Part shown: positions 7,814 to 44,200 of the stretch, piece by piece
How positions within the stretch are numbered: position 1 is the first letter of the stretch
Layout: the number at the start of each line of letters is the position of its first letter
Source: a virus
Strand: one strand, 5' to 3'
IMG/VR virus record: IMGVR_UViG_3300017991_000145
Location: 1 to 51,041 of that record
DNA length: 51,041 nt
Translations under genes and position numbers: made by a program
Notes under the pieces: model-generated
The model's input: the letters and a program-made list of their open reading frames with translations, nothing else
Databases searched by the model: none
What the model was told of the DNA's origin: nothing

Positions 7814-7845
7814 TTGGATTCTCCTCCCCACTACGACATGGTGTT

Positions 7846-9993: not shown

Positions 9994-10006
9994 AATAAAA
10001 TCTCCG

Positions 10007-10567: not shown

Positions 10568-11165
10568 CTTCGGTCTCCCCCTTCTCCGCACCGCCATCAC
10601 CCGGTATGTTAGAAGCAAAGTCATTGAGGTCATCCCATTTCGGATCAAGGATACCCCCGACAATAGCACGGTCATAGTGAAGTGCAAACATAACGTTGCA
10701 CATCAAAGCTGCCGGATGGTCCTCATCGTCCAGAGCATCTACTACCTTCTCAGCGTGACGCCAGAACGAATCAAGGGTCCGGGAGATGAACATACCTTTC
10801 GCCCAGTTCCACTCGTCGTACTTCTTAGCACCTTCCTCAAGCCACTTCTGCAAACGGTCCTGCCCATAAAGAGCCGCGGCGTTGGCTAGAGCGATGTCAA
10901 GGTACTGATAGTTCCTGTGCAGTTCGTACATCATAACCATCTCGCCGGCGAAGACCGCCATGTCAGCGAACTTAACAGCATCCTCGTCCTCGCCGTACTT
11001 CCCGCCCTTCTTGTTCACAGCGAAGCGTTGCTTGAGCATACCGAACTTTGCATACGGGGAGAAGAGTCGTGGTGACACTTTCCCTTCAGCGGCGTCCCGT
11101 ACTGCGCCCCCTTCAAATTCCTGTCTCTTGCCCGAGTCCTTCATTTCCATCTGCGGTTCCTCCAT
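10557..11165 (-). CDS. dATP/dGTP diphosphohydrolase-like protein (DUF5664, MazZ-related)
   Basis: A 202-residue protein. Its text follows the DUF5664 (dATP/dGTP diphosphohydrolase N-terminal) pattern: GGAVRD..EGKVSPRLFSP near the start, then GAKKYDEWNWAKGM, a conserved Arg-His (DSFWRHAEKV), and DEDHPAALMCNVMFAL. Glu and Asp residues in these helices would bind Mg2+ as in all-alpha NTP pyrophosphatases (MazG-like). It would cleave dGTP or dATP to monophosphate. The ATG overlaps the upstream stop as TAATG. About 45 residues (CVNKKGGKYGEDED.. to YQYLDIALANAAALYGQDR region) are inserted relative to the short family consensus I remember. The following gene is an HD phosphohydrolase. Confidence 0.75.
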   Translation of the reverse strand: MEEPQMEMKDSGKRQEFEGGAVRDAAEGKVSPRLFSPYAKFGMLKQRFAVNKKGGKYGEDEDAVKFADMAVFAGEMVMMYELHRNYQYLDIALANAAALYGQDRLQKWLEEGAKKYDEWNWAKGMFISRTLDSFWRHAEKVVDALDDEDHPAALMCNVMFALHYDRAIVGGILDPKWDDLNDFASNIPGDGGAEKGETEDEG

Positions 11166-25748: not shown

Positions 25749-25964
25749 ATGAGTATTCAGATCAAATTCGGACCATCAAACTCCATCGAGAAACCTGTAT
25801 CGGATTACCCGACAGTCTCCAGCATCCTTAACGACACTAACATCAAAACTCTTCTGGGTTTTGGTTCTAACGTCGAAGCTTCGGTTAACGGAGCAAGTGG
25901 TGTAGAGCAGCTCTCTGATGGTGACATGGTGACTATCTCTAACAGGGCGTCTACAAAGGGTTAG
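25749..25964 (+). CDS. Ubiquitin-like beta-grasp protein (PRTRC protein C-like)
   Basis: A 71-residue protein. It begins with a beta hairpin (MSIQIKFGPSNSIEKPVS), then a helix region with VSSILNDTNIKTLLGF, then EASVNGASGVEQLSDGDMVT and a final strand ISNRASTKG. The order strand-strand-helix-strand-strand and the 'V.NG......L.DGD.V.I' ending is that of MoaD/ThiS-type Ubl proteins, and the chain ends in an exposed Gly as required for adenylation by an E1. PRTRC protein C also ends in a Lys-Gly, as far as I recall. It is followed by a strong terminator, then E2-, E1- and JAB-like genes. The gene has AGAAGGA upstream. Confidence 0.75.
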   Translation: MSIQIKFGPSNSIEKPVSDYPTVSSILNDTNIKTLLGFGSNVEASVNGASGVEQLSDGDMVTISNRASTKG

Positions 25965-25997
25965 AGTAGAAAACTAAAACGCCACTACAAAAAGCCG

Positions 25998-26034
25998 CCA
26001 CGGGGTTACTTCGGTAGCCCCGTGGTTTTTATTT
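25998..26034 (+). terminator. Strong UUCG-loop terminator inside the Ubl cassette
   Basis: CCACGGGGTTAC pairs with GTAGCCCCGTGG around a TTCG tetraloop (12-bp stem, one G-T), followed by TTTTTATTT. It lies between the Ubl gene and the E2-like gene on the plus strand. Read-through would give less E1, E2 and JAB message than Ubl message. Confidence 0.9.
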
Positions 26035-26051
26035 AGTCGAAGGAAAATATT

Positions 26052-26801
26052 ATGGACAACTCAAAATATTTACGATTGACCGAGTCTGGCGAGTGCCAGC
26101 TGGTCGAAGAAAAGATTTCAAAACTCAACCCCTCGTCCGCTCTCCAGCAGTATGTCCAGACCCAGGGGTTCTTGACTCCCGGACTGGGGGCAGGCACTTA
26201 CGTATACTTCTGCTCACTCGGTATCATACCTATCAAAGTGATGGAAGAGGTACCTTTCAAAACGGCCATGGTTCTGGTTAATGCAGCGGGCGAAGACGGG
26301 GAAGAGAAACCTGTATTCATGCCGAACTTCCGAATCGGAGCCCATGGAGCTATATCCTCGGAGGAACCATTCAAGCTTGTACCCCCCGAGGACATGCGCC
26401 TGATCTTCTTGTGCAGTCCGGGTCTGGGTAAGTGTTACTTTGTGGCACAGGACAAACGCACAGGTGAGTTATGGCACCCATTGGTTACCAACACATACAG
26501 TGATGGTGCGATCTGCATGGGTGGAGCTCAGACCCCTGCGTTCAATGCAAATGAAGGCATCGCAGCATACCTCGACCAGTACGCTAAGTCTTGGGGAGAT
26601 GCTGGATGGAACAATGATCTGTCAGAACACAGCGGCAACTTCATTGATGAGTGGTTGCAGTTCGATCCGAAAACCAAAAAGAATATCCTGCCGAAAGACA
26701 GACACTGGACAGAGATGTCAGCCGGTAAGATATCCTTGACCGAAGATCTTAACAATGCACTCGCTATGTTGCATGAAGGTCTTGGAGGAAACAGAGAATG
26801 A
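26052..26801 (+). CDS. E2-like Ubl-conjugating protein (PRTRC protein B-like)
   Basis: A 249-residue protein. Its last two thirds follow the PRTRC protein B pattern: YVYFCSLGIIP, then LIFLCSPGLGKCYFV, then a Trp-His-Pro segment and TNTYSDGAICMGG, with Cys155 in the place where E2-like proteins carry the thioester cysteine. Further GIAAYLDQYAKSWGDAGW matches the helical end of the family. It would take Ubl from the E1 and pass it to a target. The gene starts after GAAGGAAAATATT and overlaps the next gene by four bases. The assignment rests on motif style; the catalytic role of Cys155 is an inference. Confidence 0.68.
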   Translation: MDNSKYLRLTESGECQLVEEKISKLNPSSALQQYVQTQGFLTPGLGAGTYVYFCSLGIIPIKVMEEVPFKTAMVLVNAAGEDGEEKPVFMPNFRIGAHGAISSEEPFKLVPPEDMRLIFLCSPGLGKCYFVAQDKRTGELWHPLVTNTYSDGAICMGGAQTPAFNANEGIAAYLDQYAKSWGDAGWNNDLSEHSGNFIDEWLQFDPKTKKNILPKDRHWTEMSAGKISLTEDLNNALAMLHEGLGGNRE

Positions 26802-27193
26802 CACAGGTTAATAATAGTCTCTTTGGAGTACTCTCTCGAGCTCCGAGGGATCACAGTGCCTCGACACCAGGTTCTGGTACTCCTCGGAATATCGTTGAGT
26901 ACTTGGACAGGAGGTTCCCGCCCAAGTTTACTTCGAGCACTTCGGCTGGGAGCTTCGACTCCCGGGTAGAGCTTGTACTCGACTACTTCTTAGTGTGTAA
27001 GAGTATGTCGTTGTGGACTATCTTAGGCTCTGAAGCCAATGTAACAGAACTCAAAGATACCATAAACAAGATGGAAGACTATCGGGGTTCCGGAGTAAAC
27101 CCTTACCACAGACCAGGAGATACTGTGGTAGAGGGATCTAACAACTTATTTCAGACTCTGACACGCAGGGCTGAAGGAGGAAGTTTATTTTAA
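26798..27193 (+). CDS. Hypothetical protein inside the Ubl cassette, 131 residues
   Basis: Ser/Thr/Pro-rich at the start (SRAPRDHSASTPGSGTPRNI), then a helix RVELVLDYFLVCKSMSLWTI and a polar end. It overlaps both neighbours (ATGA with the E2-like gene, TAATG with the E1-like gene), so it is translated with them. No family recognised. It may be a cofactor or substrate of the conjugation system. One Cys (in LVCKS) is the only one. Confidence 0.68.
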   Translation: MTQVNNSLFGVLSRAPRDHSASTPGSGTPRNIVEYLDRRFPPKFTSSTSAGSFDSRVELVLDYFLVCKSMSLWTILGSEANVTELKDTINKMEDYRGSGVNPYHRPGDTVVEGSNNLFQTLTRRAEGGSLF

Positions 27194-27894
27194 TGAATGT
27201 ATATCTTATTGGTTGCGGTGGGGTTGGAGCCTGGATAGCCCAGGCTCTGGGCAAAACCTTGGGAGCGGAAGACACTCTTGTCCTTGTGGATAGAGACGTC
27301 CTGGAAAAGAGGAACTTGGATCGACAGATCTTTGATTCTTCTCAGATAGGGTCACCCAAGTGTAATGCTCTGGCAGATGCAATCGAACCTACAAAATGTA
27401 AAGTACAGTCCAAGTGCCTGTACCTTGGAGAGTCGGGGGCAGACGAGGAACTGGATATCCCCGAAAGATCCTATATCATTGTAGGGACAGACAACCATCC
27501 AGCTCGAGCATATGCTCTAGCCCTCGCCGACAAGACGGACTCTTGCTGTATCATAGCAGCAAACGAGTATGAAGACGCTGAAGCTTATTTCTATACACCT
27601 GTATGGAGGGACAGCGGAAGCGACCCACGGAAATATTATCCGGAGATTCTGACGGACAGAACCGATGACCCATTGAGCCCACCTTGTACAGGCGAGGCCC
27701 AGGAAGCAGCACCTCAGTTGGCTATAGCCAATATGAACGCTGCCTCCTATGCTATGTGGCTCTTCTGGTTCTGGACACAACACGCCAAGAATGTTACAGA
27801 AAAGGAAGCCCAGCTTATGGTACCTGTCCATATAAGGAACAGTGTAAGCCGGATGATGCCTACGACTCTTGGTGAGTTGCTTAATGCTTCGTAG
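27193..27894 (+). CDS. E1-like adenylating enzyme (ThiF family, PRTRC type)
   Basis: A 233-residue protein. The N-terminal Rossmann motif is LIGCGGVGAW (GCGGVG at residues 7-12), followed by LVDRDVLEKRNLDRQIF, with Asp33/Asp35, Asn41, Arg44, and Lys56 in GSPKCNAL. These are the ATP-binding residues of ThiF/MoeB/E1 enzymes. VGTDNHPARAYAL is the usual strand before the active site. Cys165 in SPPCTGEAQ is the likely thioester cysteine. It would adenylate the C-terminal Gly of the small Ubl protein. The length is close to PRTRC ThiF proteins; there is no second domain. It is coupled to the preceding gene by TAATG. Confidence 0.85.
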   Translation: MNVYLIGCGGVGAWIAQALGKTLGAEDTLVLVDRDVLEKRNLDRQIFDSSQIGSPKCNALADAIEPTKCKVQSKCLYLGESGADEELDIPERSYIIVGTDNHPARAYALALADKTDSCCIIAANEYEDAEAYFYTPVWRDSGSDPRKYYPEILTDRTDDPLSPPCTGEAQEAAPQLAIANMNAASYAMWLFWFWTQHAKNVTEKEAQLMVPVHIRNSVSRMMPTTLGELLNAS

Positions 27895-27919
27895 TTATAA
27901 GAGAGGAAGGGAGTAAGCT

Positions 27920-28615
27920 ATGGCTGAAACTACCACAGAAGAAGAAAAAGAAAAGAAAACGAAAAGGAAGTTGCAGTTCAAGATCCGGGAGTCAGAACAT
28001 TTCCCACCGGCTCTTATCCAGGCGATCGACTCCATGGGTATTACCGGGTTGACTCGGAATATAATCAATGCGAGTCTCAACATCAGGGTACCTGAAGACG
28101 CTACGACTATCGAAGATCTGGAAAAGTACTTGCATGAGTTACAGCCCCGTCATTTCTACAGCACGTTCAGTAACGTAGAGTGGCTCGGTGTATCTAATCA
28201 GGTACCTTCGTCTTTGCGCCGGGAGAACAGACCTCTCAGCTTCTCTATACCCCTCAAAGCCAAGGCCAAAATGCAGGGGGTTGTAGAAGTAGAGGCTCAG
28301 ACAGAGATCCCAATTGACTGGTCGCCTGAGGCTTTGCGTACGATTGGGTTAACGAGGGAAGACTTCAAGCCAAGATTGAAGGATCACCTACGCTCCGCAG
28401 TTCGACGACGCGTTAACGCATTGTCTGTCAGTGATATGACATCTGGCGTTCAGGGGGATGTCTCCGACTTGGCGTTCGTAAACGGTTCAGCACCTGAATT
28501 AGTTAATTGGTCTGATGAGGAGCTCGTACAGTTGGCTAACACTTTAATGGATTCTTATGAGCAGGCAATGGGGCAGAGGTACCCCGGACGTCCTGCTTCT
28601 GAGAGTACCATTTAA
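27920..28615 (+). CDS. Hypothetical protein between E1 and JAB genes, 231 residues
   Basis: It begins with an acidic-basic tail (AETTTEEEKEKKTKRKLQFK), has a helical middle (DLEKYLHELQPRHFYSTFSN), a beta part (PLSFSIPLKAKAKMQGVVEV) and a charged helix ending. GAGGAAGGGAG lies before the ATG. There are no Cys, so it cannot carry a thioester; target, adaptor or E3-like scaffold remain possible. No family recognised. It lies 25 bases after the E1 gene and 17 bases before the JAB gene, so one transcript is likely. Confidence 0.7.
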   Translation: MAETTTEEEKEKKTKRKLQFKIRESEHFPPALIQAIDSMGITGLTRNIINASLNIRVPEDATTIEDLEKYLHELQPRHFYSTFSNVEWLGVSNQVPSSLRRENRPLSFSIPLKAKAKMQGVVEVEAQTEIPIDWSPEALRTIGLTREDFKPRLKDHLRSAVRRRVNALSVSDMTSGVQGDVSDLAFVNGSAPELVNWSDEELVQLANTLMDSYEQAMGQRYPGRPASESTI

Positions 28616-28632
28616 ATGAGGGAATAGAAATC

Positions 28633-29991
28633 ATGCAGGTAATTAAAAATAAACCTGTAGAAAAACAGAAGATAGGTCTCTATGAGGGGCCTATCGCTGT
28701 TATTCCAACAGAAGTAGAGAACCCCGTGCTCAACTGGCACGGGGCTAAGATTTCTTTTCGTTTGTGGCAGCAGATGTTGAGTTTCTTCCAATGGACTTAT
28801 GGTGAGTTCAAAAGCGAATCTCAACTTCGGTTGTTCTACAACGAAGAGAACCACAACTGGAAGGCTATGGCCATGCCGCAGTACATTGGTACTGGCATGT
28901 CGAGTAAGGAGATTGATGACCATGATGATCTGGAGAAACTCTTGACAAGGGTCAACCCTATGAAGGGTTGGTCTGAGGCAGGGACTATCCATCACCATTG
29001 CACAAGCTCAGCCTTCCAGTCGTCCATTGATCTCGCGGATGAGAAAGATAAGAACGGTCTTCATATCACCATTGGACATGTGACAATGCCCAATGTGGAT
29101 ACGGACTTTCGAGTCTCCTTCCGCGGTATCATGTATAACGTCGCCGTCGAAGACTGGCTACATAAGAGAATAACCATAGATGAATCAGGAAAGACACCCA
29201 ACTCAGAGGTGCCTTTCCCTAAATACTGGAGAGACTCTCTGTACGAGAAACCTCGGACAGTGGTAAGCTCCGGCTATGGTTACTCCTCTTACGGTGCCAA
29301 CCATCTCCGCGGGACAAGTAAGAATCTCACTATCCTGGGGAGAGGATCTGGAGGTTCTTCGCCGAGCCACGGAGTAGGTACCTATGCAGCGAGACAGGCT
29401 ATCATAAGGAAGAAACGGGCGGAAATAGATGCAGAACAGATGAAGAGGATCGATCACCTCTTATCAACTGGACTCATGGAGCCTTCCGAAATCATGGGTT
29501 GTCGCAGCTACCTTAAGGGGTTGGAGCGGAACCTTAAGATCGACCCTATGGTTATGTCTCTGGACGATCTCGAAGTGTACCTTACTAATCTGGAGCAAGC
29601 AACTGAAATCGTCAAGCAGACGGTGGAAGAGTTTGACATGGAAAACTGGGATGTCCTGGCAGATATCAGGCAGATGACCAGTAAGTACACAGACGAGTTC
29701 GACTACAGTACGGAGACTTTCTATGCTATTAAGGATATGCTATCTTTGTATAAAGAAGGCAAGCTCCTTAGTAGTACAGACGAGTTCGACGACGAGTGTA
29801 TAGTATGCAGAGGAACAGGGCTCACAGATGACCTTGAGTTCTGTCCTCTGTGTCAGTATAACAGAAACAAAGAAGGACAAGGAGAATTAGATCTTGACGA
29901 CCTCATTATCGGAGACGGAGGGGAAACTATTGAACCTTCTGTATCCTTATCAGATGGAGGCAGCGGTCAATCTCAGAACTTCCTTGGCTAA
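28633..29991 (+). CDS. JAB/JAMM metallopeptidase with C-terminal zinc motif (PRTRC A-like)
   Basis: A 452-residue protein. The JAMM motif is GTIHHHCTSSAFQSSID at residues 118-133: H120-x-H122, then S130-x-x-D133, followed by EKDKNGLHITIG as in prokaryotic JAB proteins. The upstream Glu may be Glu58 in YGEFKSESQ. Such enzymes remove Ubl proteins from targets. The middle is a Gly/Ser linker and long helices. The C-terminus has two CxxC pairs (C389/C392, C404/C407) as a zinc ribbon with an acidic tail. Its last 62 bases overlap the helicase gene. With Ubl, E2 and E1 upstream this completes a conjugation-deconjugation set. Confidence 0.78.
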   Translation: MQVIKNKPVEKQKIGLYEGPIAVIPTEVENPVLNWHGAKISFRLWQQMLSFFQWTYGEFKSESQLRLFYNEENHNWKAMAMPQYIGTGMSSKEIDDHDDLEKLLTRVNPMKGWSEAGTIHHHCTSSAFQSSIDLADEKDKNGLHITIGHVTMPNVDTDFRVSFRGIMYNVAVEDWLHKRITIDESGKTPNSEVPFPKYWRDSLYEKPRTVVSSGYGYSSYGANHLRGTSKNLTILGRGSGGSSPSHGVGTYAARQAIIRKKRAEIDAEQMKRIDHLLSTGLMEPSEIMGCRSYLKGLERNLKIDPMVMSLDDLEVYLTNLEQATEIVKQTVEEFDMENWDVLADIRQMTSKYTDEFDYSTETFYAIKDMLSLYKEGKLLSSTDEFDDECIVCRGTGLTDDLEFCPLCQYNRNKEGQGELDLDDLIIGDGGETIEPSVSLSDGGSGQSQNFLG

Positions 29992-31228
29992 ATATGGAGG
30001 TGCCTTAGATGCCAGTGACACTGGCACAGGCAAAACGTTTACAGCTTTGGGGGTGGCGGCCTTGCGGGGGATAGCCCCACTGGTGGTGTGTCCCAAAGCT
30101 GTAAAGACCTCTTGGCGCAAAGCAGCTGAGTTCTTGAACGTACCTATCTTAGACGTATGTAATATAGAACAGTTGAAGACAGGGAAAACCCCTTACTTAA
30201 AGAGGGCAGCGAAAGGCAAGTTTGTCTGGAAACTGCCACGGGGTTCTCTCCTGATCTACGACGAGGTGCAAGGTGCCAGCGGTTACAAGTCACAGAATGG
30301 CAAAGTGTTAGCCCTTACTAAAGCGTATGGGATTGAAACGCTCTGCCTTTCTGCGACAGTAGCTGACAGCCCCCTGAAGATGAGAGCCATCGGTTACCTC
30401 CTGGGACTTCACAAGTTCCGGGATCATTACAGTTGGTGCCTCAAATACGGGTGCTATCAAAACAGCTGGGGAGGATTGGCCTTTGTCAAAGGGAATCACA
30501 GGCTGGATCATTTGAAGAAAATCCATGAGCAGATCTTTCCAGCGAAAGGCCAGCGAGTACGGATTGCAGATCTACCAGATTTCCCTGAAAACGCAACGTT
30601 TGTAGAAGCCTATGATTTGGGCGGATACACCAAAGAAATTGATGAGATCTACGCGGAGATGGAAGAAGAAATCCTGAACCCGGACTCTGATCAAAGCCCA
30701 TTAACATTGATGCTTAGAGCCTCTCAGAAATCTGAGCGGTGCAAGGTACCATTGCTGATGGACATGACAGAGGATCTACTCGATGAAGGGAAAAGCGTTG
30801 TCATATTCGTATCATTCCGAGAGACTATGGATTCACTATGTGAAAAGTTCCCGGAAGCTTCAATCATCATAGGCGGTCAAAAGGAGGCAGACCGAGACAA
30901 TGAGATTGAGAAGTTTCAACAGGACTTGAACCGGGTAGCTCTGGTGATGATACAGGCAGGAGGAGTTGGCGTTAGTTTACATGACACCCACGGGAAACAC
31001 CCAAGGGTATCATTGATAACCCCAAACTTTTCTGCTGAAAAGATGAAGCAAGCCCTCGGTCGTATCCACAGAGCAGGAGCAAAGAGTAAATCCATTCAAC
31101 GGATTCTCTATGCGGCCGGCACCGTGGAAGAGTCTGCGTGCAAGGCAGTTAGGAAAAAACTTGACAACCTTGACATGCTGAACGACGGTGACTTGGCGGG
31201 AGATTTCATAGATATTCTGAAAAAATAG
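29930..31228 (+). CDS. SNF2-like superfamily 2 DNA helicase
   Basis: A 432-residue protein. Motifs: Q-motif-like YPYQM at the start, Walker A DTGTGKT (residues 30-36), DEVQ (111-114) as motif II, SAT in CLSATVAD as motif III, and QALGRIHRAG near the end as motif VI. Order and spacing fit short phage SNF2/RAD54-like or DEAD-type helicases. I choose a TTG start: GGAGGGG lies six bases upstream, and the LYPYQ motif then sits at the N-terminus as usual. It begins inside the JAB gene. It probably remodels DNA or protein-DNA complexes in replication or recombination. Confidence 0.85.
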   Translation: MNLLYPYQMEAAVNLRTSLAKYGGALDASDTGTGKTFTALGVAALRGIAPLVVCPKAVKTSWRKAAEFLNVPILDVCNIEQLKTGKTPYLKRAAKGKFVWKLPRGSLLIYDEVQGASGYKSQNGKVLALTKAYGIETLCLSATVADSPLKMRAIGYLLGLHKFRDHYSWCLKYGCYQNSWGGLAFVKGNHRLDHLKKIHEQIFPAKGQRVRIADLPDFPENATFVEAYDLGGYTKEIDEIYAEMEEEILNPDSDQSPLTLMLRASQKSERCKVPLLMDMTEDLLDEGKSVVIFVSFRETMDSLCEKFPEASIIIGGQKEADRDNEIEKFQQDLNRVALVMIQAGGVGVSLHDTHGKHPRVSLITPNFSAEKMKQALGRIHRAGAKSKSIQRILYAAGTVEESACKAVRKKLDNLDMLNDGDLAGDFIDILKK

Positions 31229-31257
31229 TTGACTTCAACTACCTATCGGAGTATATT
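31229..31257 (+). promoter_or_regulatory. Sigma70-like promoter for the replication genes
   Basis: TTGACT, a 17-base spacer, then TATATT, starting right at the helicase stop codon. Both hexamers match consensus in five of six. The expected start lies about 30 bases before the nuclease ATG. The same TATATT box is used in the leftward operon promoter and in the control region. Confidence 0.72.
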
Positions 31258-31291
31258 ACCCGACAGTCGCCACGAAAAAATAAAGGATAGT

Positions 31292-32422
31292 ATGACAGAG
31301 GAAAAACGCCAACACGCACAGTACTCACCAAGCTCATTGGAAAAATATGAGTTGTGTCCGTGCTTCGAGCCCAGTGAAAGCTCTAACACTCAGGCATCTG
31401 AGGATGGTACGAGACTTCACGAAGCTACTGAACACGAGAACTTCGACTTATGTGAATCTTCTTTCGAAGAGGAGTGGGTTCATTCCGCTCTGAACGTAAC
31501 AGGAGAATACCATCAGAGTCTTGGGGTAGATAATACTGTCGTGTATAAAGAAAGACTGCTGGATGTAGCAGGGATAACCAAAGGATCAGCTGACTGGCTC
31601 GGAATAAATAAGAACCGTGCCGCAGTAATTGATTATAAATTTGGTAAAGTCCCGGTGACACCAGCGGTTACCAACCCTCAAGGTCAGGGATACGTACTAG
31701 GAGTGTTCAATGATTTCCCGGGAGTGGACATCGTTGATCTCGCCTTTGTATGCCCCAGAATCCCAGAGGTTACCAGTGAGACATACTACCGGGTACCGGA
31801 TGCGTCTCGCATTGAGCGCAGGATACTTGATATTGTAGAGAGGGCATCAGACCCTCACTCAATCGAGCAGCCTTCGCCCAAAGCTTGCCAGTGGTGCGGC
31901 AAGAAAGCAACATGCCCTTCGCTGAACAGCACAGCTGTCACAGTGTCAAGGGGCTTCGGTCTCCCTATACCGGAAGAGTTCGAGCCTGGAAGAATCCTTC
32001 GCCCTAGAGATAGAGCAAAGGCCCAGATACTCAGCCAGCTTCTGGAGGATTGGGGGAAGCAAGTTCGTAAAGCAAACGCTAAGGCGGTGCTGGAGGATGG
32101 TATTGAAATACCGGGATTCTCTTTGCGCTCCAAACGTGGTAAGCTTTGCGTTGATGATACCATTGGCCTAATCGAGTGGGTCAGAGGCAAATATAACCTG
32201 GACCTGGATAGCGTGTTTCACGCCTGTTCTGTTAAAGTTCCGGAGCTCGTGAATCAGATCTATGCTCAGGCCCAGTCAGAAGGGAATGATGAAGTAGATA
32301 AGAAAACGATACGAGAAGAACTAACAGAACAAGCAAGCGAGTATATACATGAAGCAGATTCAATTGTATATCTACAGAAACAACGAGGAATAAAGAATGA
32401 AGAAATCATTAGCGAAAGATAA
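31292..32422 (+). CDS. PD-(D/E)XK nuclease (DUF2800/Cas4-like)
   Basis: A 376-residue protein. It opens YSPSSLEKYELCPCFEP, the start of RecB/Cas4-type nucleases, then GTRLHEATEHE. The core is GSADWLG and AVIDYKFGK (D-x-K active site), then PQGQGYVLG (the conserved Gln). Later CQWCGKKATCPS gives three Cys which, with one near the N-terminus, could bind an Fe-S cluster. These features match DUF2800-type phage nucleases. The start has AAAGGA ten bases upstream; a longer frame would begin at the promoter. It probably makes single-stranded ends for recombination, acting with the next gene. Confidence 0.8.
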   Translation: MTEEKRQHAQYSPSSLEKYELCPCFEPSESSNTQASEDGTRLHEATEHENFDLCESSFEEEWVHSALNVTGEYHQSLGVDNTVVYKERLLDVAGITKGSADWLGINKNRAAVIDYKFGKVPVTPAVTNPQGQGYVLGVFNDFPGVDIVDLAFVCPRIPEVTSETYYRVPDASRIERRILDIVERASDPHSIEQPSPKACQWCGKKATCPSLNSTAVTVSRGFGLPIPEEFEPGRILRPRDRAKAQILSQLLEDWGKQVRKANAKAVLEDGIEIPGFSLRSKRGKLCVDDTIGLIEWVRGKYNLDLDSVFHACSVKVPELVNQIYAQAQSEGNDEVDKKTIREELTEQASEYIHEADSIVYLQKQRGIKNEEIISER

Positions 32423-33140
32423 AACACCAGAAGAACATCAGCCAGATCCAGCCGCGATGGAGGACATTGAGGGCACAACAGCCGTTGCACCTCGGGAAGA
32501 ACACCTGCCTGTAGCACAGACGGGACACTCATCCGGAGACGTTAACGAGTCAGACCTCCTCATACCACGACTGAATATAGTCCAGAGCGTTGGACCACTG
32601 TCGGGTGAATTCGAAGGCGGAGACCTTGTCTTGAATGGAGAGACAGTGATTGCGCCAAAGAACACACCTGTTAACATAACCGTCATCAACATCGTAAAGT
32701 ATTATGAGGAGAACCTTCCTTATGAGGCTAACGGACCATTGCCGAAGAGGTTTGGTTCAATTGACGAAGTCCTTGACGCAGGTATGTGGACTGATTGGAG
32801 AGGGAAAGAAAGACCACCAGCCCGTGAAGTGGCGGAGGCAACCGTGTTGATTCAGAAGCCCGATGACCTTGAGTCATTTAGCTTCAGCATCGAGTGCGAA
32901 GACAAGTTCTACGCATTGGCTCGGTGGAAGATGAAAGGCACAGCGTATGGCATGGCAGCCAAGAAGATTTTTACTGCGGAGAAAATTGAACTCCGCAATA
33001 CAGGCCTTCTTAGCGGTACATGGCAACTCTCCTCTGACCGTCAGCTGAAGGGACAGAATTATGTTTTCTGTCCAATACTTCGCTTGACAGGGAAGAACTC
33101 AGATGATAAGATTAAGCTTATCAATGAATTAGTAGGTTAA
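32397..33140 (+). CDS. Possible single-stranded DNA-binding or replication accessory protein
   Basis: A 247-residue protein that starts inside the end of the nuclease gene after CGAGGAA. The first 60 residues are disordered and acidic. From there LLIPRLNIVQSVGPLSGEF to KLINELVG is a beta-rich domain (VNITVINIVKYYEENLPY; YALARWKMKGTAYGMAAKK), with aromatic and Lys residues as in OB-type folds. In many phages a nuclease of the DUF2800 type is followed by an SSB-like gene, and this protein takes that position, but I do not recognise the family itself. The assignment is contextual. Confidence 0.5.
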   Translation: MKKSLAKDKTPEEHQPDPAAMEDIEGTTAVAPREEHLPVAQTGHSSGDVNESDLLIPRLNIVQSVGPLSGEFEGGDLVLNGETVIAPKNTPVNITVINIVKYYEENLPYEANGPLPKRFGSIDEVLDAGMWTDWRGKERPPAREVAEATVLIQKPDDLESFSFSIECEDKFYALARWKMKGTAYGMAAKKIFTAEKIELRNTGLLSGTWQLSSDRQLKGQNYVFCPILRLTGKNSDDKIKLINELVG

Positions 33141-33148
33141 CAACAGTT

Positions 33149-33188
33149 ACTATTGAGGCGGTGTGGGTCACTGCACCGCCTCAATAGT
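33149..33188 (+). promoter_or_regulatory. 15-bp perfect hairpin upstream of the DNA polymerase gene
   Basis: ACTATTGAGGCGGTG pairs perfectly with CACCGCCTCAATAGT around a ten-base loop (TGGGTCACTG). No T tract follows; instead the polymerase Shine-Dalgarno comes within ten bases. It may stabilise the message ends, slow transcription, or be a binding site for a regulator of polymerase translation. Confidence 0.65.
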
Positions 33189-33213
33189 GATTTGCAAAGG
33201 GAGGGAGACCCCA

Positions 33214-34992
33214 ATGCAGGTAGTAGCAATTGACTTTGAGTCGTACTACGACAAAGAGTACTCGATAAAAACCATGGGCCCAGATGCCTATGTCGCAGAC
33301 GGAAGATTTGACCCGTACCTCGTATCCATATACTGCGAAGACTTTCAATATGTAGGACCTGTTGAAGACGCGGATTGGTCTAAGATAACAGGGATGACAG
33401 CGATAGCCCACAACGCAAGGTTCGATAAAATAGTATTCGATAAGTGCAAGGATATGGGCCTCATACCTCATGTAAGTCAGCCAAAAGGCTGGCATTGTAC
33501 AGCTGACCTAGCCTGCTTCCTTCAAGCCCCTAGAGACCTTGAGGGTGCGGTCGATGTTTTGCTGGGCGTGAAGCTGGATAAGCGGACCAGAAAAAAGATG
33601 GACGGTCTGACATTACAGCAAGCCCGTGAAAAAGGCATGGAGCAGGAACTCCTTGACTACTGTCTCAACGATGCCAAGTACTGCTATGAGATATGGAAAC
33701 AGGAATCTGATAAGTGGCCTGAACTTGAGATGCGTCTGTCTGTTAAGAACAGGGAAGACTCTATAAGAGGGGTGGCCATAGATGTACCAAAGCTGGAACA
33801 GTATATAGAAGAAGTCCAGTTGGTTATGTGGGAGGCAGCGAAGAACATTCCATGGGATTGGAGCAACCGTAAGACACCCCTATCCCCTAAACTCCTCGCT
33901 GAACAATGCCGTAAAGTAGGTATAGTACCTCCCAAATCTCTGGCGCAGGACAGTGTAGAGTGCCAGCAGTGGGAAGATAAGTACGGCGAAGAGTACCCTT
34001 GGGTAGGAGCCATGAGAGACTGGCGTAGAGGTAACGCAGTCCTTAAAAAACTGCAAAGGATTAAGGTAGCATTAAGAGATGACAATATATACCCATACAC
34101 AATCAAGTATTTCGGAGGACACACCGGCAGATGGAGCGGGGGTGGCGGATTCAATATGCAAAATATCTATCGTGACCCTGTTGAGCTGGGCGGTTACTCT
34201 TGGGATTTCCGTAGCCTTATTGTGGCTCGGCCGGGTAAGGTCTTGTATATCACGGACTTATCACAGATTGAAGCTCGTATTCTCCTGTGGTTGGCCGACG
34301 ATCTTGAGACGCTGGTAAAGATAGCTGAGGGGTTCAGTGTCTACGAGGCCCATGCCATTGCTACAATGGGGTGGGAGGTTCAAGACCAGGCCCTCAATGA
34401 TGCAGACCCTAAGACCTATGCTTATGCCAAAGCCCGTGTCTTGGGTTTGGGTTACGGTTGTGGGTGGAAGAGGTTCGTGGAACTGGCTTGGACTTTGGCA
34501 AAACTTAGACTGACTGCCGCAGAGTCAAAGGTTACGGTCACAGACTTCCGTGCCTCGAACCCCAAGATCACTGCTCTTTGGAGATCTTTGGATTCATACC
34601 TCCAGTGGAGTGTGGGTGATACTTTTGAACTTGAGCTGGCCTCAGGTAGGACCTTGTCGTACTTCAATGTGCGCCGTTCTTCCTCCGGTCTCAAGGTTGA
34701 CATAGTCAGAGAAGGTTATCGTAGTGAGCATACCTATGGCGGAAAGCTGACAGAGAACGCTGTTCAGGCCATAGCAAGAGATTTCTTCGCAGAGAAGATG
34801 TTGGAACTTGAGGATGCCGGGTTCGTTCAACTCTGGCATGTCCATGATGAATACATACTTGAAGTCGATGAGGACGCAGACCATGAGAAGGTAGTTGCGG
34901 AGATTAGAGCCTTAATCTCCGCAGTCCCGGACTGGTTAAAGGGCTGTCCTATTGATTCTAAAACAAACATAAGCCATTGCTATCTAAAATAG
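33214..34992 (+). CDS. Family A DNA polymerase with 3'-5' exonuclease domain
   Basis: A 592-residue protein. The exonuclease part has AIDFES (D7/E9), AHNARFD (N67/D71) and YCLNDAKY (Y149/D153), the three Exo motifs of DnaQ type. The polymerase part has GRWSGGGGFNMQN, motif A ITDLSQIEAR with Asp348, motif B region KARVLGLGYG, and motif C HVHDEY with Asp545. It replicates the phage genome. The start has GGGAGGGAG upstream; a longer frame would start in the hairpin. It is shorter than T7 DNA polymerase (704), fitting phage polymerases of the short PolA type. Motif B keeps the KxxxLGxGYG form rather than the usual RxxxKxxxFGxxYG. Confidence 0.93.
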   Translation: MQVVAIDFESYYDKEYSIKTMGPDAYVADGRFDPYLVSIYCEDFQYVGPVEDADWSKITGMTAIAHNARFDKIVFDKCKDMGLIPHVSQPKGWHCTADLACFLQAPRDLEGAVDVLLGVKLDKRTRKKMDGLTLQQAREKGMEQELLDYCLNDAKYCYEIWKQESDKWPELEMRLSVKNREDSIRGVAIDVPKLEQYIEEVQLVMWEAAKNIPWDWSNRKTPLSPKLLAEQCRKVGIVPPKSLAQDSVECQQWEDKYGEEYPWVGAMRDWRRGNAVLKKLQRIKVALRDDNIYPYTIKYFGGHTGRWSGGGGFNMQNIYRDPVELGGYSWDFRSLIVARPGKVLYITDLSQIEARILLWLADDLETLVKIAEGFSVYEAHAIATMGWEVQDQALNDADPKTYAYAKARVLGLGYGCGWKRFVELAWTLAKLRLTAAESKVTVTDFRASNPKITALWRSLDSYLQWSVGDTFELELASGRTLSYFNVRRSSSGLKVDIVREGYRSEHTYGGKLTENAVQAIARDFFAEKMLELEDAGFVQLWHVHDEYILEVDEDADHEKVVAEIRALISAVPDWLKGCPIDSKTNISHCYLK

Positions 34993-35003
34993 AAGGGAGA
35001 TCT

Positions 35004-37136
35004 ATGAAACTTTTAGCAATTCCTAACCTCGCCTCGGCTGCTTCATTTGAAGTAGAGCCTTGGTCATACAGAGTCAAGATACCAAACGCTGTCGCAGACA
35101 ACAAGGCTGCTTTTATCGGGTGGTGTCAAAAGCCTTCGACTCAGAACTGCCATTTTTCCGGCATGGAAGGGCTTGACCCTTTCCGTCGGATCGGTAAAGA
35201 CAATCCGGTTGCCCTCATACGTGGGCTGGTTGCTGACTACGATGCAAGAATGACGGACGCAATGTTCCAGGATTTGAAAAACCATTGCCCTACCGAGTTC
35301 GTACCCAACTGGTGTAGCTATACGTTCTCAGGTCGAGGACGTCTGGTCTGGATGTTCGACGAACCTGTAGCCGTAGCGAATCATCGCCTGCTCAAATCGT
35401 TCCTTCGTATTGTATCCAAGAGACTACAGCTGAACGTACTGCTTCCGGGGTTTGAGGAAGAAGCTTTCCTCACACCATCTAAGTATTACGACAAAGGACA
35501 TACGTGGAAACAGCTTGAGACGAAACGAATCCCAAGAAACTTCCTCTTCCAATGGATGTACGAGGCAGGGGGTAAGGTCAACTGGAAGATCCAGGACGTA
35601 GTTATACCTCTTGAGATAGTCAAGGCCAAGATAGATGAAGCATACCCAGGTGAGTGGAAAGGTCCGTTCGAGGTGGGGTCAAGAGGACGCAGGTTCTGGG
35701 ACCCTGATGCCAAGAATGAGACATCCGTTATCGTCAGAGAGACAGGGTTCCAATGTTTCTCAGGTGATCAGGGCTTTGTTCCTTGGTCTCAAGTACTTGG
35801 TACTTCCTTCGTCAACGAGTACGAGGCTGATAAGACAGGTGAGATTATCGCTGACCTCTACTATGACGGTAAGAACTACTGGAGAAAACCTGATGATGTC
35901 TGGGAACCTCTGTCAAAAGAAGATTTGCGTTTGATGTTAAAGGTTAAGTATGGTCTTTGTGGGAGTACCTCTCGCAAAGAGACTGCCTCCGAGGTCGAAA
36001 GGGTTATGTATGCTATACAGGAACAGAAAACTGTTACTGCTGCTCTCCCATTTGTACACTTCCCTTCCGGTCTCGTGAGGCAGACTGGCCTTAAATATTT
36101 GAATACGTCATCAGTCAAGTGTCTGGAGCCTGCAAAGGATGCGCCGGCCGATTGGGGCGACAAGTTCCCATGGCTGGCTTCTCTTATCGATGGCCTCTTT
36201 GACCCTGCTGAACAGAAGGAATTCTTTTTGTCTTGGTGGAAGCACTTCTATGGCAACGCTCTTAAGTTCAAGCCACGTACTGGGCACGCTCTGTTTATTG
36301 CAGGGGACCCCGGCGTGGGCAAAACACTTCTTTCAACGGGGGTCGTATCGCGCTCTGTCGGGGGACATGTGGATGCAAGCTCGTACTTGCTCGGCGAGGA
36401 AAAGTTCACATCTCATGTGGTCTCCTCCCCTGTCATGTCAGTCGACGATACGGTCCCCGCTTCTGATTCTCGGAGGCATACACGGTACTCAGCTATGATC
36501 AAAAAGATCACAGCCAACCGTTACCAAACATATGAAGAAAAGTTCCAGAAAGCGGGACAGGTTCTATGGATGGGTCGCGTTATAGTCTCATGTAATCTTG
36601 ACCCGGAGAGCGTTAAGCTTTTACCAAACGTTGAGCTGAGTCTCCTCGATAAGGTCATGCTGTTCCGATGCAAGGACAGTGGTCTGACGTTCCCTTCAGC
36701 TGAGGAGATCGATAAGACTATATCCGCAGAGCTCCCATATCTGTGCAGGTACCTCCTCGATTGGGAGATACCGAAACAATGTGAGGGAGATGCACGGTTT
36801 GGGTGCAAAGCGTACCACGAGAGATCACTGTTTAGTGCTGCACTTCAGACAGGTGCCAGCTTCACGTTCCTTGAACTGCTGTACGACTTCCTTCAGAGCT
36901 ACTCCGAAGGAGTTGTGGGATCGAAGCAAGACGCTTGGAAGGGGTCGCCAACTAGACTGCTGGCGGATATGAGTCTTGACCCTAACATCGGGGGCATTGC
37001 AAGTAAGTACAAGCCTGCCCAGATCGCAAGTCTCTTGGGGCAGTTACAGTCTCACGGTTACGGCTTGACAAAGACAGAGTCTTCAACACAGAGAACGTGG
37101 ACTATTCCGTTTGATCTCGTTAACAATATTAATTAA
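35004..37136 (+). CDS. Primase-helicase with SF3-type helicase domain
   Basis: A 710-residue protein. The N-terminal third contains GLVADYDARM (an Asp-x-Asp pair) and YTFSGRGRLVWMF, which resembles archaeo-eukaryotic-type primases. The C-terminal part has Walker A GDPGVGKT (434-441), SVDDTVPAS as Walker B region, and GRVIVSCNLDP with the motif C Asn, the pattern of SF3/D5-like helicases (DUF5906-like). It would prime and unwind at the fork next to the DNA polymerase gene. AAGGGAG lies before the chosen ATG; a longer frame starts inside the polymerase gene. The primase part is less certain than the helicase. Confidence 0.85.
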   Translation: MKLLAIPNLASAASFEVEPWSYRVKIPNAVADNKAAFIGWCQKPSTQNCHFSGMEGLDPFRRIGKDNPVALIRGLVADYDARMTDAMFQDLKNHCPTEFVPNWCSYTFSGRGRLVWMFDEPVAVANHRLLKSFLRIVSKRLQLNVLLPGFEEEAFLTPSKYYDKGHTWKQLETKRIPRNFLFQWMYEAGGKVNWKIQDVVIPLEIVKAKIDEAYPGEWKGPFEVGSRGRRFWDPDAKNETSVIVRETGFQCFSGDQGFVPWSQVLGTSFVNEYEADKTGEIIADLYYDGKNYWRKPDDVWEPLSKEDLRLMLKVKYGLCGSTSRKETASEVERVMYAIQEQKTVTAALPFVHFPSGLVRQTGLKYLNTSSVKCLEPAKDAPADWGDKFPWLASLIDGLFDPAEQKEFFLSWWKHFYGNALKFKPRTGHALFIAGDPGVGKTLLSTGVVSRSVGGHVDASSYLLGEEKFTSHVVSSPVMSVDDTVPASDSRRHTRYSAMIKKITANRYQTYEEKFQKAGQVLWMGRVIVSCNLDPESVKLLPNVELSLLDKVMLFRCKDSGLTFPSAEEIDKTISAELPYLCRYLLDWEIPKQCEGDARFGCKAYHERSLFSAALQTGASFTFLELLYDFLQSYSEGVVGSKQDAWKGSPTRLLADMSLDPNIGGIASKYKPAQIASLLGQLQSHGYGLTKTESSTQRTWTIPFDLVNNIN

Positions 37137-38214: not shown

Positions 38215-41200
38215 TTACCAAGCCTTCATCACTGCATCTCGGTCTTCTTCAGTGTACTTGATGTTCGATTTCTCGAACCTACGCTTGAGAGACTGAGTCA
38301 GTGATTTTCTCGTACCCATCACACGCCTGATTCTGTTCATGTGTTCCTTCATCTCACTGTCTCTTGGACCACCGGGGCGGTTGAGTTCAGCGTAGATCTC
38401 AAGATAGATACGACCCCGAACTTTCCGGAGAACTTCATCCATTACATCCTTACGGTTGTAACCGTTCAGCTCCGCAGCCTTCAGGGTTTCGTTCATTGCA
38501 CTCTTAAGCTGGCGTTTTAGATCCCTGCGCCTCGTCAACTCACCCGCAGCCTGTCTGTCAGCCTGGGCATAGACCAGAGGTATTAACCTTTTCACTGCTT
38601 CGAACTTACTGGTTCCGAGTTTGGCCGGGGCGAAGAAAGATGTCGGCCTGTCGTCCAGTGTATTGAGTATAGACATCGGGACAAACTTTGAGGCTACCGC
38701 AAACGCCCTGGATTTTTTGAATTCTCCATCCACATGGAAGAGACCAAAGGTATCAGCGTCGGCCCAAGGCATATCCCACCAAGCTGAGTTCTTGGCGAGG
38801 AGCTGTTCCATGGAGGTCTTAACAGCCATTGAACTCTTAGACATTATAGTCCTTACAGGATGTTCGAACCACCCTTGAACCTCGTAAGCCTGCTTACCCC
38901 AGCGGAGGTAGACTCTCCGGCGGTTGGTTGTACCGTACTTAAGACCAAGGCTCCTTGTTATAGGAGTGACGTCAATATAAGAACGGCGACCTTCCTCATT
39001 GAGCCATGGGAATATCTTATCATCCTCGTCCGGATCGCCGAAAGCGGCGTAGATCATGGCCTGTAAAGCAGCCGGAACACCGAACAAAATCATCGTGAAG
39101 AACGCAGGCCAGTACTTGTCGAGCTTCTGATCTCTTGAGACTGTACTGAATTTGCCTTTCTGTAGGGGGTTCTTGACCCCGGCAACACCTTCAATGATGT
39201 CAGGCACCCCTGATATGTTCAAAGCTGATATCGTCCAATCTGGGGCGAATATGAGGCTCTGCATAATATCCCTCACCATCGGGTTGGCCCACAAGTACTG
39301 CTCCCACTCCTGTCCACCGAAGGCATCATTAACGTGCTGAGAGATGTCACTCATCAAAGCATCGGTAGGAACGCCGGCATATTCAGGGCTTGCCTGAGCT
39401 TCGGCCAGGATTCTCTCAGCGATATGAACCTTCATTGTAGGCTGCATCACATACCAAAGGAAGTCATCGGCCTGATTCTTTACCTTCAGGAGCCCTTTAA
39501 GAGCCGGAGCTGTGAGGTGTCGGGTCAATGGAGTCTTACCGGACAGCGTTATCAGGTTCTTGATTATGTCATTAACCCTGTTAATGTCGTAATCCGGAGC
39601 CCCGACAGCTACTTCAAGACCGCTACCGACCCACTGCTTCAGCACTCCGCTCTCATCCCTCAAGGATTTGTACTGTTTGGCCATGTCTTTGATGTTCTTG
39701 GCAAAGTGGAAGGGTGTCATCAGAGGGTTATTCTTGACATCCAGACCGAAAGAAGCAGCGTAGGATTCATAAAGAGCAAAGTGGTGGAACGCTGAGAACC
39801 CAAGAGCAAGGGACTTGGTCAGGTTATTGAACATCCGGATACCTCTCAAGGTACTGTAAAGACGAGGGTTCGACTTCTTAAGATCTTCAAAACCTTTGCT
39901 GGTCACATGCTTGAGGAGCTGTCTCGGTGCCCCGTCACGTACCCAGAAGCCGGAGACATTAAGTTCCGGAGTCTCAACAAAGGAGTATCCCCTGGATGAC
40001 AGCTCATTTTCTATGACGTTGGTAATATCCTGGATCTGTTTCCACGGGTTACCGGCTCTGTTCATCTCCAGATCTTTCAAGGTGCTCTCGCCCTTCTCGT
40101 TCTTGGGAGCCACCTTCTTGGCAAATGGAATCAGAGTTTCAAGAACAGCGAAAGCCTGCTCGTTGCTTATTGAAGTATCCTTCTCTTCCTGCCATTGATC
40201 CTCTGTTTTCCTTGGGATCATAGCCATCTCACCGTTAATGTCAGCGGTGGTGCTGGCTACGGTCAGGTATTTCTTGTTCCTGATCACTTCGGATACAGTG
40301 TTCTGCCACATTGGGAAGAGGGATGTAACCTTCAGAGTCTCAGGAAGATACCCGCCTTTGACAAGAGCCTGCTCATAAGAATCGTACTGCCTCATCTCGG
40401 AGCGTCCAGTTTCTTCCAGGCGTTTCCTTGATTTCTCATTGGCAGCCTCGGAAGCCTGCTTCTGTTTCTGCTTCATCTTAGTATCAGTAAGGCGTTGGAT
40501 CTCTTTCTGAGTACTCTCTTTAGCAAGGAACTTCTCAAGTATTGCATCTTCCGGCACTTCTCCGTAGTGGAGTTCAATGACTTCCAGCTTGGCCTCGTCC
40601 TCAACCTCTTCACGGCTTGGTACTTCTGCCGGATTCGGGATGTACTTGTACTTCTGCATCACGTAGTTGGGGAGGAACCTGATCCAGTCCTCTTCACCGA
40701 TACGGTCAGCGAAGCCACGGACTCTTTCATTAGCCTCAAGCCTCTGCCTGTTCATCTGGTCACGGATCTCTGTCTTAAGAGCATTGATCTCTTTGGCGTT
40801 ACCCACAGCGGCCAGGATCTTTTCAACGGACAGAGCTTTTGAGAACTCACCAGACCCGACAAACTGAGAAAGACCATCGACTTCATCGGCTGTCTTACCT
40901 GTGTTAGGGTCAACCCAAAGAGGATTGCGGAGGGGTTCTTTCTTCAGCTCGTCCTTGGATTCAGAGAACAAGACGTTGCCCTCAGCATCCTTACGGATTT
41001 CTGACTCATTAAAGATATGATTAGAGCCGTTGAGAGATGCACCGATCGCACTATCTATCAGGCCCTCTTCTATTTTTGCAACCTTAGAGAGTTGTTTGAT
41101 GCGTCTTTGCCAGTTTCTGGCTATTCTCTCGTCATCACGGATCGCAGCACGGGCAGCACGGGCCTCTTTGATTAACGTCTGCTGAAGTTGAGTGATGGCC

Positions 41201-44200
41201 CTTGGACTCTTACGCACCCTGTTCTCAAGATGACGCCATGCAACCATTGAGGCAGTGAGGTCGTCCTTCTCGGACACCTCTCTGTCATACCTTCTTACCT
41301 CGTTGGAATCTATGCCGGTGTCAGGGGTGTAGACGATGTCAAATGTTTCCTGTCTTCTCGGCTTCTGCCTTGCCAGCTGTTCGAGTCTATCGAACTGGTG
41401 CTTGTACTTGGCAGACGACCAGACCTTCCGCTTCTGGCGGATAAGTTTCAACCTCTGTTCAGGAGTGAGGTTTTCGTTCTCCAGCTGGTATGCAAAGTTA
41501 CGGGCCATCTTGTGGTGTTCCTTTGACACCTTCTCACCTTTACGGAAAGCGATAGCAAATGCAAGGTTACTCAACCGCTTAGGAGTATCGTATCTCTGGA
41601 ACGCTATGGCCGAGGCTGTGGTCGTTCCTTTGTCAGTGTCAGTATCCTGATCTGTCTGAAGCATATCGAGGAACTCACTCTGAGTCAGAGTAGTATGACG
41701 TTCAAGAGGGGACTGGTCTTTCTTTTGAGTCCTGTTCTGGACAGGAGTCGTAGTGACAGGCATCTCTTTCTTTGTCTCGGGAGCTTCGATAATATCAACA
41801 GCGTCAGCTTCTGGCTGCGCTGTGTTTACAGCTGTCTGAGCCGGAGGAGTAAACGCCCCTGTCTTAAGAGAGTCTCTCTTGTCCGGGTCGTAGAAAGCCA
41901 CATCGTCTGATGCAAGATTTGCCGCATATGATGCAACAAGTACCTCATCAGTCGGACTCATTGAAGCTTTATTCCAGTACTGCTCCTGTTCTACGGCCTT
42001 CTCGTTCAACGCTTTACTGAACACCGGACCTACCAAAGAAAGGAACCCACCGGAGCTGGTGCTGTTGGATGCACCGAACCTGCTGGTTGTGTAGATAGCA
42101 AGCTTCAGTTGTATATCAAATGGGAGTTTATCGAAATCTTCCTGCGCCCCCTGCAACAGCTCCTGAGGTACGCCCCTGAGCTGGTATGATTTGAGTATCT
42201 GGACACGGGAGGATTTCCCCACCTGCCTCTTTTCAAGGAGACCAAAGAGGCGGTTGTCCGGATACTCTTCTTCCCACTTCTCAAACTGGGAGGGTACTTC
42301 CCTGAGTACCTTTACGAAAGACTCCTTGTCCTTCATCATAGAGTACAGAGCGTCAGAGATTACGACGTTATCAAGCCTGCGTTCGTACTTGATCTTAACC
42401 TCATCCGGAACCATAACGTTCTTGCTATCTACTTTGGAACCCGTCTCTTTCGAGAGCTCCCTGGCTCTGGCTGCCTTGTATATAGCCGCAGATCTCTCTG
42501 CGATGGGAGCTGACTGCTTGGAAAAGTACAGAGCCTGGTTGAATATAAAGTCATAAGCAGAATCCAACGCCTTACTTGAAGCGTCTACAAAAGGAGAGTT
42601 GAGCTCATTCACCCTCAGGGTATTGAGCATCGTCATCTCATTACTCTTGATCCTGTTAGCCAGATCTTTGGAGCGTTCATAAGAAGTGCTTGTCTCCGGG
42701 ATAGTACCTGAAGCCAGCTTGAAGAAGCTTGCCATACTGGAAAGGTCACGGCCAAGACGGTGGAGATTCCTGAAGTCCTGGAACTTCTTGGATTTCTTAC
42801 CATACTTCTTACCCAGTTTACTCCAAGTAACTGAGATGTCTCCGCTGTTACGGACAGAAGCTCTCTCCCTTTCAAAGTTAACAAAGTCCATCACGATGTC
42901 GGAGTGCAGGTAGTCAGCGATGAGATCAACGTAGTCTACCATCTTCTGATCGTTGTTCAGGTTACTATTGGCGAAGACCAAAGCATATGCTACTTCCAAG
43001 GTGCGAGGGTTGATACCAAGGTGCCTGACCTCATCATCCTTGGCATTATCCGCAAACATATTGAGGATGTTACCGAGGAAGTTCTTTGTGAAGATCGCAT
43101 GTCCCTGTCTTTTCTGAGCAGCTTCCGGTGTGAAAAGATCAACCGTTAACTTTTCTTTACGGCCAGGAACCTCGATCTGGTAAGGCTTGGTTGAAGCCAT
43201 TTTCTTACCGTGGAACGCTTTCTCATTCAGGAACAGTTCGTGCATATTAAGCATACTGAAACCAGAGGAAGCAAGAGCACCCATAGCCAGACCTTGCTTC
43301 CCTTCAAGATTGGCAGTCCGAAGTTCCCGGGATCTCCGCGGATCAATCAGCGGGTGCTTTGACTTGTCTTCCATCTTCTTATATCTTTGAACCGTGGCGT
43401 CATAAGCCTTCTTGTCAATTGGAGACTTGATAGCGTTGAGATTGGTGACGTCCTGGTACTGACCAACCATCTCGAAGAGAGCCATGTTGATCATCTTACC
43501 GCGGTCGGACTCGATATCAAATCCAGCAACAGGCTTCTTACCTTCAATCTTCTGAGACACGAGCAATGGAGTTTCAACATATCGTTTGTCAGCGTCAAAG
43601 TCAGAACCGGCATTGACCTGATCTTCAAGAGCTGTCTCTATGAAGTTGGCGGTCGTCGGCAGCCTGCGCTGTAAACGGGCGACAGAGTGGGAGTGAGCAT
43701 CATCACCCGGAACACGGGAGATAATTACCGGAGCTCCAGGGATTATGAACTTACCTTCTTCTGTCGGGTGACGTTCAATCTCCCAGATCTGGATGTCCCA
43801 GTTCTCTGCATTGTCAAGGAGGAACTCTCTGTCTTTGACGGACTTACCGTTCAAAACTACCATATCAAGGTAGCGAGGAGTAGTGCCGTTCTCAAGATCC
43901 CGGGCAATCATACGGCGTATGAACTTCTCAGCGGCTTTAACCGACTTGAAAGTACGGTCATAGTTTGTCGCCCTGATCCTTTTGTCGACCGAAGCATTGG
44001 CACGGGAGATTCTGTTAACCATCCCGGTCGCTTTGCCTTCTTTAAAATCTTTGTATAGTACAGCCTCGAACTCACCATTGGCATTAATGTTACCCGCAGT
44101 GATTGTAGGGAGGTTAGCCCTAGCGGAGGCCGCCGGTATCTCAACGAGCTGAGCCATATAGGTCTTGTTCTCTACCAGATCATTGTATTTGTAGCTGTAC

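Follow-up and report, generated by a model that had tools for sequence, protein, structure and literature searches.

A putative phage-encoded ubiquitin-like conjugation cassette related to the PRTRC sets of plasmids

Bacteria and plasmids are known to carry complete sets of a ubiquitin-like protein (Ubl) together with E2, E1 and JAB proteins, some of which act in defence while others have no assigned role. Here we describe a candidate set of this kind that is encoded by a phage. It occupies positions 25749-29991 of the IMG/VR record IMGVR_UViG_3300017991_000145, a stretch of 51,041 bases that is called the window in the following; positions given without a locus name refer to this whole record. 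Major head, portal/adaptor and terminase genes, all on the minus strand, identify the record as a genuine phage. The PRTRC cassette (families TIGR03735-TIGR03742 of NCBIfam) matches operon type 6d of Iyer et al. (2006; PMC1779556, Table 1 row 6d), which combines a small Ubl with a highly conserved C-terminal Gly, an E2 with a conserved His downstream of the active Cys, and a JAB protein with strictly conserved Arg and Trp in its N-terminal domain. The best reading of our sequence comparisons is that the phage cassette represents a sister lineage of PRTRC (type 6d) with an E1 clade of its own, and not a branch inside PRTRC.

Enzymes of the cassette and their relation to PRTRC

The list of open reading frames (ORFs) contains six genes on the plus strand in the order Ubl-E2-X-E1-Y-JAB. 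The Ubl gene (25749..25964; 71 amino acids (aa), ending ..NRASTKG) is followed by that of an E2-like protein (26052..26801, 249 aa), which contains TNTYSDGAICMGG with the motif N147-TYSDGAI-C155-MG, by X (26798..27193, 131 aa), by an E1/ThiF-like adenylating enzyme (27193..27894, 233 aa) with GCGGVG, NLDRQ and Cys165, by Y (27920..28615, 231 aa), and by a JAB/JAMM metalloprotease-like protein (28633..29991, 452 aa) with HHH and SxxD motifs and a Cys cluster near its C-terminus. An initial annotation of this DNA had already described these frames, their common direction and the two unassigned proteins in between, all of which was confirmed. A Shine-Dalgarno-like sequence lies ahead of all six starts, and the X gene overlaps the E2 gene, as the E1 gene overlaps the X gene, by a few bases.

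The assignment of the 233-aa protein to ThiF is certain from its sequence (Pfam ThiF, 1.2e-15), and it bears the full E1/ThiF set of GxGGxG, D, N..RQ, K, D and Cys. A search with the PRTRC A, B, C and ThiF models, as the initial annotation had suggested, hit the right ORFs for A, B and ThiF, but all scores were below the curated NCBIfam cut-offs (PRTRC_ThiF 27.4 of 145 bits; PRTRC_B 0.0034, 16.8 of 131 bits for the E2; PRTRC_A 0.0013, 18.4 of 102 bits for the JAB) and PRTRC C matched nowhere. Prok-E2_D (0.0078) was also below its cut-off for the 249-aa ORF in the Pfam/NCBIfam scan. Since the public libraries were weak for E2 and JAB, we built profiles from plasmid PRTRC proteins only and compared them with 1,818 open frames taken from the window, from a pair of related phages and from two loci of the crAss-like type. 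The window E2 ranked first with the plasmid PRTRC_B profile (E 5.4e-6), the window JAB ranked first with the PRTRC_A profile (E 1.3e-3), and phage ThiFs filled the top ranks of the ThiF profile (window E 6e-13). That three independent profiles pick three genes in one short cluster is beyond chance, and the E2-like, ThiF-type and JAB assignments made initially are supported by these ranks. A profile from three Verrucomicrobiota JABs, one of which exceeds the Pfam Prok-JAB cut-off, likewise placed the window JAB first (of 2,989, E 6e-13), while a zinc-ribbon match of the same protein remained below cut-off. A UBC fold of the E2 is suggested by its profile link to PRTRC_B and Prok-E2_D, and the spacing between Asn and Cys in N-x-[YF]-x-x-G-x-x-C-x-G fits the Asn and Cys of the UBC active site.

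After removal of near-copies, the catalytic residues proved to be nearly invariant. In 28 E1s GxGG, D33, N41, R44-Q45 and K56 were invariant where present, D100 was found in 28/28, and a Cys at position 165 or adjacent to it was equally found in 28/28. All 29 E2s contain N147, C155, G157, N187 and D189, and E62 and D133 are each present in 40 of 40 JABs. Together with H120, H122 and S130, these two JAB residues match the JAMM signature E ... HxH-x7-SxxD; the HHH and Ser belonged to the search pattern and hence provide no independent conservation count. Candidate counterparts of the Arg and Trp of type 6d JABs are R66, which is Arg in 17/40 relatives, and W76, which is Trp in 38/40.

In the E1 tree the window-type clade (support 96/96) stands beside the PRTRC clade (98/97). 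Both clades obtained 99/98 when a third group from Verrucomicrobiota was present, and the addition of 23 more viral E1s gave SH-like approximate likelihood ratio test (SH-aLRT) values of 94 for the window type versus 93 for PRTRC. Phage and PRTRC cassettes share separate genes for Ubl, E2 of the Prok-E2_D kind, JAB and a minimal E1, the E2 core PxxNxYxxGxxCxG, a Ubl end made of A..K plus a small residue, and a location on mobile DNA, which for some PRTRC cassettes is near replication genes (pQBR103). However, the phage-type E1s fall outside PRTRC ThiF, the phage E2s have [W/C/I/Y/S]-N-x-D where PRTRC has a downstream Thr-His (the alignment is loose there), the Ubls of the phage family end mostly in K-A instead of K-G, and the order Ubl-E2-X-E1-Y-JAB is found in phage genomes and without ParB, E or F matches. 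Neither a ParB profile nor those of PRTRC E and F had a significant match in the window, in agreement with the initial statement that a ParB-like gene is lacking. The PRTRC likeness proposed there holds as a relationship at profile level, but the separate E1 clade and the different E2 signature set the phage cassette apart.

Both kinds of set were found side by side in a metagenome-assembled genome (MAG) of Opitutus, where a classical PRTRC set (ThiF 1.8e-71; B, C, E and F by NCBIfam) adjoins a window-type set on the same strand, in an element located at the end of its contig (L038 2211-11232; G004:C2). Therefore, the two can occupy one element. The window-type E1 of this MAG is split by a frame change, so that only its C-terminal part was used, and its Ubl end alone permits no conclusion.

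The nearest sister by the E1 tree is an E2-JAB-E1-Ubl set in four Verrucomicrobiota genomes (L049 4683-11376 (-); L050 about 4859-10708 (-); L052 1519-5667 (-); L051 289-1725), with a related JAB (6e-13) and Ubl and an E2 with FNSDL. Unlike the phage cassette, it lies on bacterial contigs, its Ubl ends in GEKG, and it adjoins a retron-type reverse transcriptase (RT) in three of the four genomes; L051, where no RT was seen, is a short contig. The RT is best matched by PADLOC RT_XIII (2e-77) and has VTG and YADD motifs. Judged by sequence, the whole might represent a retron whose effector is a ubiquitin-like set. CRISPR-like repeats, which translate as FNPRPPRGER, are located at about 2892-4182 of L050 near the RT-linked set. 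A sister relation to PRTRC and to the retron-associated sets would provide three contrasts for probing the role of these mobile systems.

The crAss-like phages (e.g. cr111_1 and phiCrAss001) also have JAB and ThiF genes together near replication genes, but their E1s form a separate, distant clade. In two crAss-like loci (L012 2770-6645 and L013 3194-6624) the proteins encoded beside JAB/ThiF resemble, by eye, an E2 (..GGCLGNG) and a Ubl extended by a helical part. JAB relatives occur in 74 records of phages, among them cultured ones of Bacteroides and Flavobacterium, the latter (e.g. Fpv2) having been searched for JAB alone. BilABCD, CBASS Cap2/Cap3 and Bub share the chemistry of a Ubl or target C-terminus, E1, E2 and JAB, but have larger or fused E1s and a defence context, and the sequence match was restricted to the E1 core. 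BilABCD combines an E1 of inactive and active adenylation domains with a tandem-Ubl BilA (PMC11354881), whereas the window E1 is a single 233-aa domain and the window Ubl is single. Lambda-type TAPI/TAPK resemble the cassette as a phage Ubl plus JAB, but are located among tail assembly genes (PMC1779556) and lack E1 and E2.

The ubiquitin-like protein and its C-terminus

The 71-aa protein had no family match in library scans. Its AlphaFold2 (AF2) model, calculated without an alignment, reached a predicted local distance difference test score (pLDDT) of 83 and a predicted template modelling score (pTM) of 0.70, with strands and helices ordered as in a beta-grasp; since the model derives from a single sequence, the beta-grasp is a prediction only. 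The top VIA-align match was MoaD of the MoeB-MoaD complex (Z 7.7), and the structural matches were mostly of the MoaD, ubiquitin and SUMO types. Due to the middling Z values the likeness is at fold level only. A homologue in the Opitutus MAG (41% identity, E 7.5e-8) occupies the same place before the E2, X, E1, Y and JAB genes. The beta-grasp-like nature that had been attributed to the 71-residue protein thus appears plausible from the predicted model and the syntenic homologue. In the two related phages, G001 and G003, the Ubl domain forms the N-terminus of a ~237-aa protein that is encoded further upstream and continues into a helical region, and the assumption that these phages lack a Ubl was therefore rejected. 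The GG ends of their E2s were set aside as a signal, as they likely stem from the ribosome-binding sequence of the next gene.

Ubls were read from 30 loci, yielding 27 distinct relatives. The Lys of the C-terminal motif is kept in the family, and the next residue is Ala in nearly all members and Gly in the window. Most end in exactly ..QASSKA, and some relatives continue for one to seven residues beyond K-A. Tandem double Ubls are encoded in three viral contigs (L055 962-1465, L083 2416-2892 and L106 6996-7499), with the junction ..AANSKA/SEVS.. or ..AANSKA/ADEVS.., and resemble a small polyubiquitin. PRTRC C proteins often end in ..GTKG or ..AKG and are sometimes extended, and the retron-linked Verrucomicrobiota Ubls have a GEKG end followed by 0 to 29 residues; comparison of two Ubls with PRTRC C by hhalign revealed only the common K-G end. 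A C-terminus that is processed and activated would be expected to show a constant end behind a Lys-small-residue motif, together with optional extensions. The ..QASSKA-stop retained in many phages and the ..AANSKA/ tandem junction point to a selected, processed Ubl end.

Between the Ubl and E2 genes a pattern scan identified a terminator-like hairpin on the plus strand (25997..26026; stem of 13 bp, T run), and the region 25965-26050 folds with -26.7 kcal/mol (z -3.2). Due to this hairpin, the Ubl could exceed the other products. The initial annotation mentioned neither the hairpin nor the exceptional status of the terminal Gly.

Proposed conjugation and alternative functions

The PRTRC profiles, the predicted Ubl fold and its homologue, the gene order, the near-invariant catalytic residues and the replication neighbours favour a function in conjugation and deconjugation, and from these features we infer a possible course of events. 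We consider it rather probable that the Ubl, once trimmed by the JAB, is activated by the E1 and handed over to a protein by the E2, and that the JAB is able to undo this transfer. Owing to the terminator, expression of the Ubl would be partly independent of that of the enzymes, and a tandem, extended or fused precursor would be trimmed by the JAB to the ..K-A (here ..K-G) end. The E1 would adenylate this C-terminus and may carry the Ubl on Cys165, from where it would pass to Cys155 of the E2. The E2, perhaps aided by X or Y, would place the Ubl on a protein, and the JAB would take it off this target.

As had been annotated, the cassette is directly followed by a replication module on the plus strand (29894..37136) that encodes a helicase, a DUF2800 exonuclease, a 247-aa protein, a DNA polymerase and a DUF5906 protein. 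Since cassettes of this type recur in replication modules, their position suggests that the most likely targets are proteins, of either the phage or the host, that act in DNA replication or recombination. In cells, ubiquitin and SUMO serve to regulate replication; if the cassette acts in the way proposed here, phages would have a comparable tagging system of their own within the replication program. Whether a widespread family of phage Ubls with a mature Lys-Ala end, processed by the JAB from tandem, extended or fused precursors, is put on DNA replication proteins in the course of infection by a dedicated E1 and E2 is a more specific proposal, which we regard as tentative and rather doubtful.

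Several observations weigh against conjugation. No E3 was recognised, and in library scans of the window proteins X had zero family matches and Y none that was convincing; X has positional counterparts of varying length in G001, G003 and Opitutus, and Y has weak ones, by position and weak profile, in some relatives. The AF2 run for the E2 from three sequences gave a pLDDT of 32, and this model was not used. The His that Iyer et al. described near the E2 active site is absent from the window-type E2s, which have the N-x-D motif instead. The Ala end is the chief objection and at the same time the feature of greatest interest. Among the 27 distinct relatives the last residue is Ala in 21, Val in five, Asn in one and Gly in none, and since most end in Lys-Ala, the terminal Gly loses the diagnostic value that the initial annotation had given to it. 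Characterised conjugated Ubls are mostly Gly-ended after processing, and to our knowledge conjugation has been shown for no Ubl with a conserved Ala end. If the phage Ubls are nevertheless conjugated, the K-A end would demonstrate that a terminal Gly is dispensable for this chemistry.

The loss of Gly would be explained if E1, E2, JAB and Ubl formed a regulatory or structural complex with a non-covalent role and conjugation had been lost, and the Ubl-helix fusions of G001 and G003 are compatible with this. However, the catalytic residues of the three enzymes are near-invariant in the same phages and the Ubl C-terminus is itself conserved, for which reason we regard such a role as quite improbable. 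A sulfur carrier system, in which the E1 adenylates the Ubl for a C-terminal thiocarboxylate that delivers sulfur onto a nucleotide, tRNA or cofactor and the JAB only matures the Ubl, appears unlikely. Its E1 would be the minimal enzyme of the ThiF/MoeB type seen here, MoaD is the top structural match of the Ubl, and one related Ubl from Verrucomicrobiota scores slightly below the cut-off of Pfam ThiS; yet those loci that are sufficiently complete encode an E2-like protein in which Asn and Cys are invariant, and neither rhodanese, cysteine desulfurase nor cofactor genes were recognised among the annotated neighbours.

Alternatively, the cassette might compete with or strip conjugates of host Bil, CBASS Cap2/Cap3 or Bub systems, e.g. 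by action of the JAB on host Ubls. Many phages carry it, and related enzymes operate in Bil and CBASS, as is also reflected in a match of the window E1 to the PADLOC E1-E2 set. For such counter-defence the JAB alone would do, yet the phages retain their own Ubl, E1 and E2, and the recognised neighbours are replication genes, so we give little credence to it. Retrons are defence systems, and the sister cassettes of Verrucomicrobiota adjoin a retron-type RT, which might suggest a phage-carried module for defence or superinfection exclusion against other phages. We consider this very improbable, since the cassette sits inside the replication module and neither a retron RT nor any known defence gene could be recognised next to those phage cassettes that were examined.

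Distribution and neighbouring genes

A search of IMG/VR with the JAB motif GT[IV]HHHxxxxAFQS yielded 55 contigs with 54 new loci. All 54 encode a JAB of the window kind (E at most 7e-23), and most also carry genes for the other three proteins, arranged as Ubl-E2-E1-JAB, while several of the less complete loci are truncated where the fetched stretch ends. The same gene order is present in the related phages and the Opitutus element. Searches for close relatives of single proteins gave almost no match in viral contigs and none for E2, JAB and Ubl in annotated phages; the family surfaced only through motif searches. L003 was discarded as a false match that has FYNEENHN in common by chance, and MoeB matches in Acinetobacter 'phage' records belong to bacterial metabolism. 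We found no annotation for the cassette family, and a literature search that covered few subscription journals retrieved no phage lineage with its own Ubl-E2-E1-JAB set, no report of PRTRC with phages, and no report of a crAss phage ThiF in this sense.

Neighbours were annotated for five loci. In four of them (L074, L098, L063 and L070) DNA polymerase, primase, helicase or exonuclease genes were found, and in L081 only a family of unknown function. Since the helicase type of the window occurs in only two loci, several kinds of phage are probably involved. The bacterial relatives belong to Verrucomicrobiota, which by sequence is only a hint as to the host of the phage.

Some further features were seen in or near these loci. 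In phage G003 a GIY-YIG/NUMOD endonuclease-like gene, recognised by eye, lies between E1 and Y (L009 1172-1834 (-)). In a Verrucomicrobia MAG a window-type JAB is truncated soon after HHH and stands beside a 3,607-aa protein (L028 1799-2344, L041 2671-13494). A single protein of 3,856 aa, encoded on the minus strand at 38215-49785, takes up nearly one quarter of the window record, and its counterpart in G001 is shorter, with at least 2,436 aa.

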